Both the position numbers and the translations under genes were made by a program. From contig NZ_JPSY01000001.1 of assembly GCF_000763375.1 (NCBI RefSeq), positions 186,001 to 250,000 of the forward strand: a stretch of DNA of 64,000 nucleotides, given 5' to 3'. The notes under the pieces were generated by a model. The model was not told where the DNA came from, ran no database searches, and worked only from the letters and a program-made list of their open reading frames with translations. The DNA is from Microbacterium profundi (GTDB lineage Bacteria > Actinomycetota > Actinomycetes > Actinomycetales > Microbacteriaceae). Positions 3,873 to 11,379 of this stretch are shown here, piece after piece (position 1 is the stretch's first letter; the number at the start of each line of letters is the position of its first letter).

Positions 3873-4624
3873 GGGCAGACGCCGTTCTCCTGCAGCGTCT
3901 CGTCGGTGACGATCGCGCCATCGACCTGTACGTCGACCACGACCTCATCGCCGTCGACTGCGAGACCCGTCATGGTGAGTCCGGCCGGGAGCTGATCCGC
4001 GATGCAGATGCGCTGCGTCTCGGTGAGCTGCTCGGCGATCGTGCCGAAGCGATCGGCGATCTGCTGGGCGTCCAGCGTCGCGCCAGCGACCTGCAAGGAA
4101 ACCGGCGTGAGCAGCAGCTCCCCGGCATCAGCGCCGGGCGTCACCGTCAACGCGATCGGCAGGGAGAGGCCGAGCACGGGAACGCTGCCCGAGACGGTGA
4201 CATCGGGCTCTGCGAATGCGACCGAGTCGATCGGCAGATCGGATGCCGCGACGAGCACGGTGAACTGGTCGGAGTCGATCCGCACCGTACCCCGCGCATC
4301 GGTGAGGTCTCCCCCGCGCAGCGGGATTCCGGTCGCCGTGACGTCGGCTGCACCCGTGACGCCGCCGATTGTCACTGATTCAGTGGTCAGATCCAGCCGG
4401 TCCAGTCGGCCGCCGATCAGTTGCGGCAGCAGGATGCCCGATGCGTCGACGTCGAGTTGCTGGTCGGCGGGAAGCTCGAGCTGTTCGATGACGATGCCGC
4501 GCACGATGCCGGGCAGCACAGCCCTCGCGATGAGTTCTGCCGCGACGGCGAGCACTGCGACGACGAGCACGATGATGAGCAGCACCCACGGCCAGCGAGC
4601 GCGTCGTGCTCCCTCGACCTCCAT
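3869..4624 (-). CDS. LmeA-like (DUF2993) membrane-anchored protein
   Basis: 251 residues starting MEVEGARRARWPW. One N-terminal transmembrane anchor (WVLLIIVLVVAVLAVAAEL) is followed by an exported domain of the DUF2993 type. The mycobacterial relative LmeA binds phospholipid and takes part in lipomannan maturation in the periplasm; transfer of that role here is inference. Start ATG 4624 shares one base with the argS stop (TGATG), which is why the longer upstream reading was rejected. It forms an operon with argS. The C-terminus ends in NGVCP, with a second cysteine about 27 residues from the end of the folded domain (TQRICIAD), so a disulfide is possible. Confidence 0.75.
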   Translation of the reverse strand: MEVEGARRARWPWVLLIIVLVVAVLAVAAELIARAVLPGIVRGIVIEQLELPADQQLDVDASGILLPQLIGGRLDRLDLTTESVTIGGVTGAADVTATGIPLRGGDLTDARGTVRIDSDQFTVLVAASDLPIDSVAFAEPDVTVSGSVPVLGLSLPIALTVTPGADAGELLLTPVSLQVAGATLDAQQIADRFGTIAEQLTETQRICIADQLPAGLTMTGLAVDGDEVVVDVQVDGAIVTDETLQENGVCP

Positions 4625-6288
4625 CACATGCGCTCGGGGGCTGACACGCCGAGCAGTCCGAGCCCGTTGCGCAGAACCTGGCCCGTGGCGTCGTTCAGCC
4701 ACAGCCGCGTGCGGTGCACGCTCTCGATCGGGTCGTCGCTCAGCGGGGTCACGCGGCAGTTGTCGTACCAGCGGTGGTACAGACCGGCCAGTTCCTCTAG
4801 GTAGCGCGCGACACGATGCGGCTCGCGCACCTGGGCGGCGAATGCGACGATGCGCGGGAACTCCTGCAGCGCACCGAGGAGCGCGGACTCCGTCTCATGC
4901 GTCAACGTCTCCGGGGCGAACTCCGAGCGATCGACACCGGAATCGGCGGCGTTGCGTCCGACGTTGTGCGTGCGGGCGTGCGCGTACTGCACGTAGAAGA
5001 CCGGGTTGTCGTTCGTGCGCTTCTGAAGAAGCTCCGGATCGAGGTCGAGCGGCGAGTCGGCCGGCGAACGCTCCAGCGAGTACCGCAGCGCATCGGTGCC
5101 TAGCCAGTCGAGCAGGTCGTCCATCTCGATGATGTTGCCAGCGCGCTTGGAGAGTCGTGCGCCGTTGATCGACACCATCTGTCCGATCAGCACCTCGACG
5201 TTCTTCTCCGGGTCCTGGCCTGCCGCGCCGGCGATCGCCTTGAGGCGGTGCACATAGCCGTGGTGGTCGGCGCCCAGCAGGTAGATCTTGTTCTCGAACC
5301 GGCGGTCGCCCTTGTTCAGGTAGTACGCGGCGTCGGCGGCGAAATAGGTGTACTCGCCGTTGGAGCGGCGGATGACGCGGTCCTTGTCATCGCCGAAGTC
5401 GGTGGTGCGCACCCAGACGGCGCCGTCCTCGTCGAACACATGGCCCTGCTCGCGCAGGCGATCCACCGCCTGGTCGATCAGGCTCACGCCCGCGGCATCC
5501 TTCGCATGCAGTGTGCGCTCGGAGAACCAGACGTCGAAGGGCACGTTGAAGCGATCGAGAGAGCTCTTGATCTCGGCCAGCTGGAACTCGTACGCGAGGT
5601 CTTCGGCGACCGTGAGCTGCTCGGAGTCCGCCAGGTCGAGCAGATCGGGACGCGCCTCGACCACGCGCGCAGCGAGCGTGGCGATGTACTGGCCCGGGTA
5701 TCCGCCCTCGGGGGTCGGCTCGCCCTTCGCCGCCGCGATGATCGAGTTGGCGAAGCGCTGCATCTGCGCACCGGCGTCGTTGATGTAGTACTCGCGGATC
5801 GCGTTCGCGCCGCTGGCGAGCAGCAGGCGCACGATCGAGTCGCCGAGAGCCGCCCAGCGGGTGTGGGCGATGTGCAGCGGCCCGGTCGGGTTCGCCGACA
5901 CGAACTCGACGTTGACGCTGACGCCGGTCTGGGAGTCGTTCGTGCCGTATGCGGTGCCCGCGTCGACGATCATCTTGGCGAGCACACCCGCGGCGGCGGC
6001 ATCCAGGCGGAAGTTGATGAACCCGGGGCCGGCGACCTCTGCGCTCTTCACTCCGTCGACGCCGACGATCTCGTCGGCGATGCGCTGCGCGAGCTCGCGC
6101 GGGTTCGTGCCGAGCTTCTTCGCGAGCCGCATCGCGATATTGGATGCCCAGTCGCCGTGGTCGCGGTTGCGCGGACGCTCCAGCGCGATGTCGGCTGCAT
6201 CGATGCCGAGCGCCTCGTCGGGTCGCAGGGACGCGGCGATCGGCGTGACGACGGCGAGGAGGGCTTCGGCGAGGGTGTCGGGGTTCAT
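4624..6288 (-). CDS. argS: Arginyl-tRNA synthetase
   Basis: Class I aminoacyl-tRNA synthetase that charges tRNA-Arg. 554 residues, full length. Visible: an N-terminal Add-1 domain, the HIGH-region motif in the variant SANPTGPLHIAH, YINDAG, GADHHGY, the degenerate KMSKS region GARLSKRAGN, and a C-terminal DALR anticodon-binding domain ending RNGLGLLGVSAPERM. A TAGACT hexamer lies nine bases upstream of the ATG, suggesting a very short leader. It is followed by a one-base overlap with the LmeA-like gene and is divergent from the SGNH hydrolase gene. Confidence 0.97.
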   Translation of the reverse strand: MNPDTLAEALLAVVTPIAASLRPDEALGIDAADIALERPRNRDHGDWASNIAMRLAKKLGTNPRELAQRIADEIVGVDGVKSAEVAGPGFINFRLDAAAAGVLAKMIVDAGTAYGTNDSQTGVSVNVEFVSANPTGPLHIAHTRWAALGDSIVRLLLASGANAIREYYINDAGAQMQRFANSIIAAAKGEPTPEGGYPGQYIATLAARVVEARPDLLDLADSEQLTVAEDLAYEFQLAEIKSSLDRFNVPFDVWFSERTLHAKDAAGVSLIDQAVDRLREQGHVFDEDGAVWVRTTDFGDDKDRVIRRSNGEYTYFAADAAYYLNKGDRRFENKIYLLGADHHGYVHRLKAIAGAAGQDPEKNVEVLIGQMVSINGARLSKRAGNIIEMDDLLDWLGTDALRYSLERSPADSPLDLDPELLQKRTNDNPVFYVQYAHARTHNVGRNAADSGVDRSEFAPETLTHETESALLGALQEFPRIVAFAAQVREPHRVARYLEELAGLYHRWYDNCRVTPLSDDPIESVHRTRLWLNDATGQVLRNGLGLLGVSAPERM

Positions 6289-7182: not shown

Positions 7183-7947
7183 TCAGGAGGCCCACGCGTC
7201 GGCCACTGTCGCGGCCGCCTCCGCAGCCGTCACACGCACGCGGCCCTGATGCGCAAGCGCATCGTTCCACTCGGTCTGCGAAGGTAGAGGCGCGAAGGCA
7301 ACGGAGTGCGCGGCCGTCGTCGGGCCGAACCGTGCATGGAGTCGACGCGCTTCGTCGGTGATGAGACCGCGCGTGGCCAGCGCCCAGAGGTCGTAGAGGT
7401 CTCGGGGTGCATGGCGATCGTGCCATGCCGCGAGCTTTGCTGCAGCGAATGCCGGTGCGGTGAGAACTCGCAGCTCAGCCGGTGGGGCGTCTGCATACCT
7501 CTGCTCCAGGGTGCGCACCTCTGTGGGCCATCGCGGATATCCCGTGTGAGGGAGCAGCTGCAATTGGATCGAGGCGTCGCCGATTAGCATTACTGATGTT
7601 TGTGCCTGGCGAGTGTTCACGATGTCCGGAACGAAGGTCGGCGTTCCCACCACTCTGCCGAGAGCCGAGATGAGTACGTCTTGGATATCACGCGCCAGCA
7701 CGGGGCGCGGAGAAAGCGCGATGAGATCGATGTCCTCGGATAGACGCAGGTCCGGGAGGTACGTGCGTGCCAGCGCAGTGCCGCCGAAGAAGAGCAGACG
7801 GTCGCTTTCGATTCGCGAGAGAGCTGCGAGGGCGTGAGAGATCACGTGATCCCGTCGCACCTGGTGCGCGGAAACGCCGAATGCAGCCGTCGTTGAGTTC
7901 AGATCCGCGGCCGAGAGGATGCCCGGCGCCCCACGACTTCGAGCCAT
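7183..7947 (-). CDS. AbiEii/AbiGii-family nucleotidyltransferase toxin
   Basis: Toxin half of a type IV-like AbiE module. AbiEii proteins are nucleotidyltransferases that block growth and can abort phage infection; related enzymes modify tRNA ends. 254 residues from ATG 7947. Motif I GGTAL (55-59) and the metal-binding motif SEDIDLI (70-76) are intact, so the catalytic core looks functional. The start is preceded by GGAGGACTGAG. It is downstream of its antitoxin, and only one base separates the antitoxin's stop codon from the toxin start codon (TGA-G-ATG), so the two are translationally linked. Base composition looks less GC-rich than the neighbours, and the pair lies next to a tRNA, both hints of acquisition. 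Confidence 0.85.
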   Translation of the reverse strand: MARSRGAPGILSAADLNSTTAAFGVSAHQVRRDHVISHALAALSRIESDRLLFFGGTALARTYLPDLRLSEDIDLIALSPRPVLARDIQDVLISALGRVVGTPTFVPDIVNTRQAQTSVMLIGDASIQLQLLPHTGYPRWPTEVRTLEQRYADAPPAELRVLTAPAFAAAKLAAWHDRHAPRDLYDLWALATRGLITDEARRLHARFGPTTAAHSVAFAPLPSQTEWNDALAHQGRVRVTAAEAAATVADAWAS

Positions 7948-7948
7948 C

Positions 7949-8590
7949 TCAGTCCTCCAGTGATGCCAAAAGGGCTCGAGCCGAGGGAGGCACACGGCTG
8001 CTCTGCTCGAGCACCCTCTGGAACTGCGCACGCGTGACCCGCGCCGCGAGATTCGCAACGGCCTCACTGTGCTGCCCTTCTCCCAGTGCCGCGCGCACCG
8101 TGCGATTGGCCAGCAGGTCGAACAAGGTCTGCGGAGGGGACGTCACGAGGGCAGCGCCGAGAACTGTCTGCTCGAGCGTTGCGTCGACTTCGTCGATGCG
8201 TCGGAACACGAAGTGAACGCGCCCGCCCGTCGCAAGTTCGACGGGTTTAATGCCGCGCTCCCCCACTGCGATCGTCGTGATTCCTATGGCGCGCGGAATC
8301 GCGTGCCAATGTCGCGCGGCACCAGCGCCCATCAGAACGACGGCGCGGGGTCCAAAGCGCGCGGTGGCCAGGGCAAGCGCTCCCGCCTCGAGCGGTGGCT
8401 TCCATCCACGTGCATCTGCGCCGTCAGGTGGGACCGTGTACACGCCGTGCGCGAGCTTAGTCACGGCACCCTTCCGAATAAGGCGAGCGATGGTGCGCGT
8501 CGTGTTGGTGACGATCGCTCCGATATCCTCCGTGCGTACGGTTCGCATCGGAGCACGTTCGATCGTGCGGATCACTTCGACGTCATCCAT
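7949..8590 (-). CDS. AbiEi-family antitoxin / transcriptional autoregulator
   Basis: Antitoxin partner of the AbiEii toxin. 213 residues. The N-terminus is a winged helix (EDIGAIVTNTTRTIARLIRKG, then HGVYTVP), as in AbiEi proteins that bind inverted repeats and repress their own operon. The C-terminal part resembles the AbiEi antitoxin domain (LVTSPPQTLFDLLA). ATG 8590 was chosen over an in-frame ATG at 8620 because GGAGG sits at the right distance from it. The toxin gene follows immediately. Confidence 0.8.
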   Translation of the reverse strand: MDDVEVIRTIERAPMRTVRTEDIGAIVTNTTRTIARLIRKGAVTKLAHGVYTVPPDGADARGWKPPLEAGALALATARFGPRAVVLMGAGAARHWHAIPRAIGITTIAVGERGIKPVELATGGRVHFVFRRIDEVDATLEQTVLGAALVTSPPQTLFDLLANRTVRAALGEGQHSEAVANLAARVTRAQFQRVLEQSSRVPPSARALLASLED

Positions 8591-8598
8591 CGCGCCTC

Positions 8599-8645
8599 CT
8601 AAGTGAGCATGAATATACACTAGGCGTCGGTTTCTGCTTACTTAG
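8599..8645. promoter_or_regulatory. AbiE operator/promoter: inverted repeat flanking a -10 box
   Basis: Two 11-base arms, CTAAGTGAGCA at 8599-8609 and TGCTTACTTAG at 8635-8645, are inverted copies with one mismatch. Between them on the minus strand lies TATATT (8612-8617), a plausible -10, and the distal arm covers the -35 position. AbiEi proteins are known to repress by binding inverted repeats in their own promoter, so this is the likely operator. Confidence 0.65.
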
Positions 8646-8732: not shown

Positions 8733-8739
8733 TGTTCTG

Positions 8740-8812
8740 TGCCCCCGACAGGAGTCGAACCTGCGACCTACGGTACCGGAAACCGGCGCTCTATCCACTG
8801 AGCTACGGAGGC
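8740..8812 (-). tRNA. tRNA-Arg(CCG)
   Basis: 73 bases on the minus strand fold as a cloverleaf. The acceptor stem GCCTCCG pairs with CGGGGGC (one T-G wobble), the D-arm is GCTC/GAGC, the anticodon loop is TTCCGGT with anticodon CCG (reads CGG, Arg), and the T-arm is GCAGG-TTCGACT-CCTGT. The discriminator base is A and CCA is not encoded. Confidence 0.95.
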
Positions 8813-8828
8813 GTACCGAACGACGATA

Positions 8829-9029
8829 TCACTGGTCGGGAGTCATCAATATCACTGCCAGCCTGTTGACGATCCATGCCAGGCGCATAAGAGCGCCGAG
8901 CACGACAATCACGCTGCCCACGACCAGTCCCATTCCCAGCGGCAGACCGAAGAACGCGAATACGATCGAGCCGTTGTCCATGTGGTCACAGTACGGCCAA
9001 TGTCCGTTGAAGAGGGAAGAATCACGCAC
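8829..9029 (-). CDS. Possible small membrane protein
   Basis: Up to 66 codons from GTG 9029, which has an AAGG about ten bases upstream; an internal ATG at 8981 would give 50 residues. The centre is two hydrophobic stretches (FAFFGLPLGMGLVVGSVIVV and LAVIL), so a small membrane protein is plausible. No family is recognised. It lies between tRNA-Arg and the divergent MerR-type gene, in a region otherwise empty of genes. Confidence 0.35.
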   Translation of the reverse strand: MRDSSLFNGHWPYCDHMDNGSIVFAFFGLPLGMGLVVGSVIVVLGALMRLAWIVNRLAVILMTPDQ

Positions 9030-9070
9030 TCGCTTGACCTTCAGCCGGGGTGAGAGTCGATCATGGGACC

Positions 9071-10183
9071 ATGAGGCAGTCGCATGAGTCCGATCGCGAC
9101 GAGGTCGAGCAGCCGCCGTTGCAGACGATCAGTGCGTTCGCTCGCTCAGTCGGCCTGAGTGCGAGTGCGCTGCGTCAGTACGGGGAGACAGGTCTGCTCG
9201 CACCCGCCGATGTCGAGGAGCGAACCGGATATCGCTACTACTCGCTGGAACAGCAGCAGCGAGCGATATGGATTCGACGTCTGAGGGATGCAGGGCTCTC
9301 TCTGGAGCGCATCAGTGCGATGTTCGAGAGCGATCTCCCGGGAGCGGAGATCATCCTGCGTGCCTGGCGTGCCGACGCTCGCGAGCGCTATGAAGTGATC
9401 ACGGCACTGGTGGACGACCTGACTTTCACTCTGCGCGCACGAGTAGAGAAGAACCCCGCGATACGCACCTCGGCCCGATTCGATGCCGCGGCTCTGGCAT
9501 CCGCCATCCGGCAGGTCGCTTCGGCCAGTGCGGATGCCGGTGGAGACGACGACCACGACGGCGTACTCATCGAGGTCGGTCACACATCGGCCGCGATCGT
9601 CGCGACAGACCGCTACGTGTTGATGGCGCGAACAGGACTCTCCTCGGTGATCGATGGTCCACCGGCTCGGGTGAGATTCGCTCCAGCACAGGTGCTGGAG
9701 TGGCTTCGAGGTCGGCAGTCGGTGGATCTCGTCATCGATGCCCCGTCCGGGCGTGACCACGATGCGGCGAGCGCAGTGAATCGGTTCTGCGATGAGCGCG
9801 ATGACGAGCTGTCACTGCCGAACCGAGCGGACCTTTTCCCGAGCGTGCATCGAATGCTCGAGACGGCTGCGTTTCCGCCCACCAATGCGCTCTTCTCCCT
9901 GGACGAAGTGCGGAGCCTCACCTCAGCGCCGGAGGACGACACTGTGCACCTCAACGTCGACGGTGACTCCGCGCTGCTGACGTCCGGCCGACGGTCGGTC
10001 TCAGGTGCCGGCATGGGTGTCACCGCTGCCCTAGCTCTGTCTCGGCCCGTTCTGCGCCGCATCGCCGACGCCTCCGTCGGTCACGAACTCACGTGCGACA
10101 TGCATGACTCCGGTCGGGCGCTGGTGTGGCGGGCCCCCAGCCAGCCGGACTTCGTCGCGCTGGTGATGCCGCACCAGCCATGA
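9071..10183 (+). CDS. MerR-type regulator with sliding-clamp-like C-terminal region
   Basis: 370 residues. Residues about 17-85 are a MerR winged helix (SAFARSVGLSASALRQYGETG, then TGYRYYS and a dimerisation helix). The remaining 270 residues are not a usual MerR effector domain. They carry patterns of the DNA polymerase III beta clamp: SAAIVATDRYVLMARTG resembles the clamp's ATDxxRL strand, and the protein ends FVALVMPHQP, like the clamp's C-terminal LIMPMRL. ATG 9071 was chosen because GATCAT plus exactly six bases precedes it; GTG 9050 would add seven residues. The stop overlaps the MFS gene (ATGA), so it probably controls that exporter. The clamp assignment is my reading and has not been tested. 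Confidence 0.75.
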   Translation: MRQSHESDRDEVEQPPLQTISAFARSVGLSASALRQYGETGLLAPADVEERTGYRYYSLEQQQRAIWIRRLRDAGLSLERISAMFESDLPGAEIILRAWRADARERYEVITALVDDLTFTLRARVEKNPAIRTSARFDAAALASAIRQVASASADAGGDDDHDGVLIEVGHTSAAIVATDRYVLMARTGLSSVIDGPPARVRFAPAQVLEWLRGRQSVDLVIDAPSGRDHDAASAVNRFCDERDDELSLPNRADLFPSVHRMLETAAFPPTNALFSLDEVRSLTSAPEDDTVHLNVDGDSALLTSGRRSVSGAGMGVTAALALSRPVLRRIADASVGHELTCDMHDSGRALVWRAPSQPDFVALVMPHQP

Positions 10184-11379
10184 CGCCGCTGCGCTCAGCC
10201 CGAGGTTTCAACGCCTGGGTCGCCGCGACGGTCGGTTCAGAACTCGGCTCAGGGATCCTCGCCTTCGCTCTGACGTGGACCGCGTCCGGTATCGGCCCGC
10301 AGGTCGCATCTGCCGTGCTCACGCTCACTGTCGCTCCGTCCGTGGCCCTGGGATTGCTCGGGGGTGCCGTCGCCGACCGGTTCGGACCGCGTCGTGTCAT
10401 GATCGCCGGCACGCTCGCGATGCTCCTCGTCAGCGCGGCCCTCGGCGTCGCGGTCATTCTCTGGATGCCGTCCGCCGTCCTTCTGCTGATCGCAGCGACG
10501 CTCATCGGCACCGTCGCAGCCTTCCAGCGGCCGGCAGCAGGCGTCTTCCCACGTCTGTTCGTCGCTGATGCCGATCTCGGAGCCGCGATGGCACGTGTCG
10601 GGATGGCGAGCCAGTTCGCGCGAACGATCGCTCCCCCGGCCGGCGGCCTGCTGGTCGGACTCATCGCCCTGAGCGGAGTGGCGTTCTTGGATGTCGTCGG
10701 CGCCGTCGTGATGCTCTGCACACTGCTGCTGATCCGACCTCCGCGTGCGAACGCTCCAGCCCGCGACGCGGTGTCGCTGCGCGGGATCGTCACCGGTGTC
10801 GCAACAGCGCGCCGAACGAGCGGCGTTCCTGCGCTCCTGGCTTGTGTGGGGATCGTCGCGGGAGCCGTCATCCCCGCCGTCCTGCTGGGCATCCCTCTGG
10901 CCGCACGGGAGCGCGGCTGGTCCGCATCCGATGCCGGCGTCATCGAGGCCGGTTGGATCGCCGGCGGCCTGGCCTGCGGCGCGTGGTTCGCGTGGCGCGG
11001 GACTGCGACGAAGGTGTCCCGGCCCATGGCGCTCGGTCCGCTTGTCGTCGCCGCCGGTCTCGGACTGCTCGCCATAGCCCCCGCGTGGATCGTCGCGCTG
11101 ATCGGCACGACGTTCATCGGTGTCGGCGTGGTCGTGTTCACTGCCCACGTCTTCCCGACCTACCTTCTGTTCGCACCGTCCGCGATGGTCTCGAGGTTTC
11201 AGGCTCTGCTGATCCTCGTGCAGCAGGCGCCGCAGCTCCTCGTGAGCCCGCTGATCGGGCTCTTCGTCGCCGTCGTCGGGACAGGGCCTGTGCTCGCCGT
11301 GTCAGGATTGGTGGCGACGCTCGCGACGCTCATCGTCGTCACCGACAGGACGCTGCGAACCTTCACGACGAACCGATGA
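10180..11379 (+). CDS. MFS transporter
   Basis: 399 residues with about 12 hydrophobic helices. The loop GAVADRFGPRRVM after helix 2 is the MFS signature (motif A). The start ATG overlaps the stop of the MerR-type gene by four bases, so the two are co-translated. This arrangement suggests an exporter whose expression answers to that regulator. The substrate is unknown, and drug or metabolite efflux is the commonest role for such pairs. Its end is convergent with the coiled-coil gene. Confidence 0.85.
   Translation: MTPLRSARGFNAWVAATVGSELGSGILAFALTWTASGIGPQVASAVLTLTVAPSVALGLLGGAVADRFGPRRVMIAGTLAMLLVSAALGVAVILWMPSAVLLLIAATLIGTVAAFQRPAAGVFPRLFVADADLGAAMARVGMASQFARTIAPPAGGLLVGLIALSGVAFLDVVGAVVMLCTLLLIRPPRANAPARDAVSLRGIVTGVATARRTSGVPALLACVGIVAGAVIPAVLLGIPLAARERGWSASDAGVIEAGWIAGGLACGAWFAWRGTATKVSRPMALGPLVVAAGLGLLAIAPAWIVALIGTTFIGVGVVVFTAHVFPTYLLFAPSAMVSRFQALLILVQQAPQLLVSPLIGLFVAVVGTGPVLAVSGLVATLATLIVVTDRTLRTFTTNR

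Follow-up and report, generated by a model that had tools for sequence, protein, structure and literature searches.

A MerR-type regulator with a sliding-clamp-derived body, encoded next to an MFS transporter in Microbacterium profundi

Organization of the locus

The window analysed here, a stretch of 64,000 nucleotides from the Microbacterium profundi genome (contig NZ_JPSY01000001.1), carries two overlapping genes on its forward strand. The first (9071..10183, from the ATG at 9071 to the stop at 10183) encodes a regulator of 370 amino acids, in which a MerR DNA-binding domain is fused to a body derived from the sliding clamp DnaN, whereas the second (10180..11379) encodes a 399-residue transporter of the MFS family (PF07690, MFS_1, E 3.7e-19). 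The genes share an ATGA start/stop overlap, read from the sequence at 10180..10183, and the same −4 overlap with the next gene is present at other loci of the family. The sequence-only reading of the window had placed the genes and their overlap at these positions, and its N-terminal MerR winged helix is borne out by a match to MerR_1 (PF13411, E 2.4e-13) over residues 19-86 (9125..9328). In the predicted model of the monomer, the DNA-binding domain is followed by a single long helix (residues 89-125; 9335..9445), probably the dimerization helix usual in MerR proteins. The rest of the protein consists, with approximate borders, of a region like clamp domain II (residues ~128-260; 9452..9850), containing ATDRYVL and FPSVHR, and a region like clamp domain III (residues ~261-370; 9851..10180), which includes the C-terminal LVMPHQP. 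Pfam recognizes the MerR part of the regulator alone, leaving the clamp part without a match, and NCBIfam yields a MerR match for the regulator and the MFS match 2A0121 for the next gene, both below cut-off.

The neighbouring genes lie on the reverse strand. An AbiEii-type nucleotidyltransferase gene (PF08843, E 1.5e-25) and, upstream of it and overlapping it, an AbiEi_4-like gene (E 3.4e-05, narrowly below cut-off) occupy positions 7183-8620 and, judging by these matches, likely form a type IV toxin-antitoxin pair. A gene for tRNA-Arg (ccg) is located at 8739-8812, between this pair and the MerR-clamp operon, and an arginyl-tRNA synthetase gene at 4624-6288. Divergent from the regulator gene is a frame of 50 amino acids (8829-8981), which, translated by eye, has a membrane-like sequence (MDNGSIVFAFFGLPLGMGLVVG...); by eye, this region seems to be conserved in front of L010, the closest relative, and not in the other upstream regions compared.

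The clamp-derived body and its peptide pocket

Profile comparison and predicted structure identify residues ~128-370 as a homologue of DnaN domains II and III, and the clamp fold of both domains is found in the window protein. A clamp-like body had been suspected from the sequence-only reading, and this suspicion was right as to the fold, but the body comprises two clamp domains, not three. The profile and structure comparison could have returned an unrelated fold and instead placed the body in domains II and III, so that an unrelated fold is contradicted by both lines of evidence; a three-domain clamp was also rejected, with domains II and III alone fitting the ~240 residues that remain after the MerR part. 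Matches to PF00712 (domain I) occur in some relatives, where they overlap the domain II region (residues ~123-233) and are therefore cross-matches. The N-terminal MerR winged helix-turn-helix is present in 71 of 71 homologues. The fusion shares with DnaN domains II and III and, across the family, much of subsite I of the peptide pocket, but lacks domain I, possesses a MerR domain and is encoded far from dnaN-recF; because domain I is absent, the usual clamp ring around DNA would not be expected. The regulator is clamp-derived but not a clamp. PF02768 matches once in the host genome, at an ordinary dnaN that lies far from the window and has an adjoining recF-like frame (by eye). Over the residues of the clamp's dimer interface (269-273 in E. 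coli), two alignments of the fusions differ, one placing L at position 272 in 47 of 48 rows and the other giving 0% retention.

The pocket was followed in E. coli numbers, using the list of clamp pocket residues in subsites I and II as given in PMC11139829, where subsite II is described as holding the Gln of clamp-binding motifs. Subsite I is more conserved than the body as a whole (entropy 1.03 vs 1.87, P about 0.001), whereas subsite II is not significantly so (1.37 vs 1.87, P 0.06). Among columns at least 0.8 conserved in 30 actinobacterial DnaNs, examined in 93 of the 94 fusions (one short row was dropped), the DnaN residue is retained at a rate of 0.73 in 15 pocket columns, compared with 0.34 in the 90 remaining columns (P about 0.0001 by permutation), and the same comparison inside three well-aligned blocks gives 0.81 vs 0.46 (P 0.01). 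The pocket has thus been retained preferentially, while many clamp-conserved residues outside it have been lost. Retention is nevertheless uneven, being low family-wide at N320 (6%), Y323 (1%) and R365 (39%) of subsite II and at positions 152 (22%), 246 (6%) and 247 (27%) of subsite I. By contrast, in the rows labelled by a TPR-like partner gene (see below), T172, R174, P242 and M362 are each found in 52 of 52 sequences and L155, R176 and L177 each in 51 of 52. The window protein equals the DnaN consensus at 8 of 18 pocket residues and is changed at L155 and R176, as well as at N320, Y323 and R365. Since subsite II is largely lost, few pocket residues match and L155 and R176 are gone, a ligand in the window clade, if there is one, is probably not a clamp-binding peptide of the canonical, Gln-led kind. 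The host's own DnaN (L001) has Q aligned at position 362, where the 30 other actinobacterial DnaNs have M; the fusion keeps M.

These patterns bear on what the body does. Being located at the junction of domains II and III, the pocket residues might be kept for folding and could be structural, and 74 of 94 loci have a gene for a TPR or MFS partner nearby; both observations would suit a body that acts as a structural or dimerization module without sensing, in which case the input would arrive elsewhere, whether at the MFS protein, at the TPR partner or through the level of the regulator. We regard this as unlikely, because the predicted helix 89-125 presumably already provides the usual MerR dimerization element and because retention in pocket columns is about double that in other columns of equal conservation, also within blocks. 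Equally doubtful is a sensor of replication stress, in which the clamp body would bind the clamp-binding peptides that replication or repair proteins carry, or swap subunits with the cell's own clamp, and so read the state of the replisome, with the exporter or the TPR protein serving as a stress response. The mostly near-unchanged subsite I of the TPR-labelled rows (51-52 of 52 at seven positions) speaks for such a sensor, as does the single ordinary dnaN of the host, next to which the fusion is an extra clamp-like protein; against it stand the loss of N320 and Y323 from the subsite that accommodates Gln (PMC11139829) and the difference at position 362 between host clamp (Q) and fusion (M). 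We lean instead towards a clamp fold that would itself sense a ligand.

Distribution and partner genes

The architecture, which the sequence-only reading had expected to be unusual, is not rare and extends over many genera. Of 8000 proteins scored in a search with a divergent alignment, 2466 reached E≤0.001 (matches, not all necessarily full fusions), and the best 120 of these include proteins from Streptomyces, Saccharopolyspora, Kribbella, Nonomuraea and Actinomadura. Scanning of genomes confirmed at least 533 relatives, and 80 loci were kept. As lower bounds, with 5-16 candidates scored per genome, the fusion is present in at least 11 of 396 genomes of the phylum and at least 2 of 299 of the family, and at least 7 of 119 Microbacterium genomes have matches, full-length in 4 genomes and confined to the MerR part in 3, which indicates an accessory gene in this genus. 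The architecture is already visible in databases, often under misleading names, and the naming of some relatives as ‘DNA polymerase III subunit beta’ is an annotation trap, the entries being MerR-type fusions. A literature search by title and start of abstract, with most subscription papers and all preprints outside its scope, returned no paper on the MerR-clamp architecture. The same database label would fit a duplicated or mis-assembled dnaN fragment lying beside a MerR gene, with no functional fusion; however, the frame is uninterrupted in many genera of the phylum, with the promoter conserved and the partners recurring, which makes this extremely improbable.

In all, 96 loci were examined, of which 94 are distinct, L097 (= L007) and L113 (= L017) having been removed as duplicates. 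A locus was labelled by the same-strand gene located up to 600 bp downstream, if homologous to the window MFS or to a small TPR-like protein, using HMMs derived from the neighbour genes themselves. On this basis, the partner is an MFS homologue in 21 distinct loci, a TPR-like protein in 53 and neither in 20 (22, 54 and 20, respectively, for all 96 loci). Hence, an MFS gene does not always follow the fusion, the point that the sequence-only reading had wished to see checked, and since the TPR-like partner is commoner than the exporter, the general output of the family is not export. When the called genes of 78 of the first 85 loci were clustered by BLAST, 17 MFS and 34 TPR genes emerged as immediate partners; Pfam backs both labels, the TPR weakly in some members. 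The recurrent TPR-like partner has ~145-240 amino acids, for example downstream of L048, L020 and L017; in two such proteins scanned, no NCBIfam model was found at E≤0.01. By eye and in a crude frame listing, the distant clade L117-L121 has no common downstream partner.

The MFS partner has been inherited together with the regulator. On the 94-row regulator tree, the MFS label requires 6 changes vs 19.3 when shuffled, and it is carried by 14 of 15 rows in a clade of Microbacteriaceae, Brevibacterium, Actinophytocola and Nocardioides, as well as by 6 of 8 Kribbella rows; because the latter nest beside TPR rows, partners must have changed at least once. In the tree of partner MFS proteins, computed without L078 and without one of five own-genome paralogues, 19 of 20 rows form one grouping, which excludes three of the four paralogues included from the own genome; it also holds two long-branch rows, one of which is the fourth paralogue, and the partner of L054 falls outside. 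The regulator and MFS trees have their main groups in common, and in each of them the pair from Actinophytocola clusters with Microbacteriaceae and Brevibacterium, which suggests joint transfer of regulator and MFS gene. In L078 (Kribbella), the MFS partner is split in two, which may reflect a disrupted gene or an error in sequencing.

The promoter and a possible mode of control

Directly upstream of the regulator gene, on the forward strand, the operon promoter comprises the −35 element TTGACC (9034..9039), a 19-bp spacer (9040-9058) and the −10 element GATCAT (9059..9064), which fits xAxxxT and is located 6 nt upstream of the ATG, so that the transcript is probably leaderless. A predicted MerR-type operator, an imperfect dyad GACnnTCA-N7-TGAnnGTC read by eye, covers positions 9036..9058. 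The family-wide motif TTGAC[CT][CT]T is present within −160..+45 of the gene start in 91 of 94 distinct loci, where Markov resampling predicts 0.007 occurrences per locus, and was not found at L040, L054 and L058. At 19 bp from it, xAxxxT occurs at 91 of 91 sites and xAxxAT at 73 of 91, with 11 at 22 bp and 0 or 1 at other spacers; this promoter is common to MFS, TPR and partnerless loci. A spacer of 19-20 bp is described as the signature of MerR-family promoters (PMC9909328), and the predicted window promoter has such a spacer holding the dyad. The family-wide promoter with its −10 element at exactly 19 bp, the MerR-promoter signature, is described here for the first time, together with the partner counts, the single operator site of the host genome and the preferential retention of the pocket.

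The promoter, the gene order and the exporter point to a BmrR- or TipA-type mode of action, and on balance we favour, by a slender preference, a self-controlled, BmrR-like switch that would sense a ligand in the inherited clamp pocket. The regulator, a MerR-family transcription factor with beta clamp domains II and III as its effector domain, would occupy, as a dimer, the dyad that its own promoter holds in the 19-bp spacer, and would control one operon, consisting of regulator and MFS exporter or, in more of the relatives, regulator and TPR-like protein. If BmrR and TipA are a guide, a ligand entering the pocket between domains II and III may change the dimer, which would then distort the over-long promoter and switch the operon on, whereupon the exporter might remove the ligand or a related toxic compound. 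The 20 of 94 loci with neither partner speak against such a switch, as do the uneven retention of the pocket, with 8 of 18 residues matching the DnaN consensus in the window protein, and its place at a domain junction, where folding might account for its conservation. The sequence-only reading had taken the exporter for the target of the regulator; this is in keeping with the homologous MFS gene next door, the shared main groups of the two trees and the single MerR-type promoter upstream of the operon in the window, but does not extend to the family, in which the TPR-like partner prevails.

The bmr gene encodes an MFS pump, and the ligand domain of TipA and AlbA is all-helical, unlike the clamp pair. 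BmrR-bmr resembles the window system in its MerR DNA-binding domain with a C-terminal ligand domain, its over-long spacer and its multidrug-efflux pump target (PMC9909328), and the ATGA-overlapping MFS gene downstream of the predicted promoter would be consistent with BmrR-type control of an efflux gene. BmrR differs in having a GyrI-like ligand domain in place of the clamp II/III pair, and most relatives of the window regulator have a TPR-like partner rather than an exporter; at E≤1, Pfam finds no GyrI-like model in the window protein, the residues in question being assigned to the clamp domains. The regulator can also be likened to the thiopeptide-binding TipA, described as an antibiotic-binding MerR switch that activates its own expression (PMC9909328), and to AlbA, an albicidin-binding MerR-type protein. 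GriR and MypR, too, are extra clamp-derived proteins besides the normal clamp, but are described as the products of DnaN-encoding self-resistance genes in griselimycin and mycoplanecin producers rather than as transcription factors (PMC10817943). Since both compounds are examples of clamp-directed natural products (PMC10817943), one could imagine a target mimic, in which the clamp pocket, their target, has been fused to a MerR domain, so that a clamp-directed product would be detected by pocket occupancy and answered via the exporter or, in other clades, the TPR-like partner; we give this proposal little weight. If a clamp fold with much of its pocket preferentially kept does serve as the effector of a transcription factor, it would represent a new type of MerR sensor and could lead to natural compounds or peptides with affinity for clamps, which are an antibiotic target.

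Two patterns were used to gauge the reach of the regulator, the window operator in its own genome and a family pattern in 11 genomes. At up to 3 mismatches, the window operator has one match in the whole genome, its own site (reversed control 0), and this single site, placed before the exporter operon, again argues against a reading of the replisome. The family pattern, at up to 2 mismatches, yields 13 matches, 11 of them at the fusion gene's own promoter (reversed control 0), and is without a match in genome G322. These two patterns do not support a large regulon, with one match in the own genome and 2 of 13 elsewhere than at fusion promoters across the 11 genomes (L141, L142), and the simplest reading of these sites is a near-private, probably self-controlled operon. 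Such a uniform, near-private promoter makes the sensing question directly testable. At L141 (~1500), a VOC-type gene, followed by a different MerR gene (both named by eye), has a similar site with 19-bp spacing in front of it.
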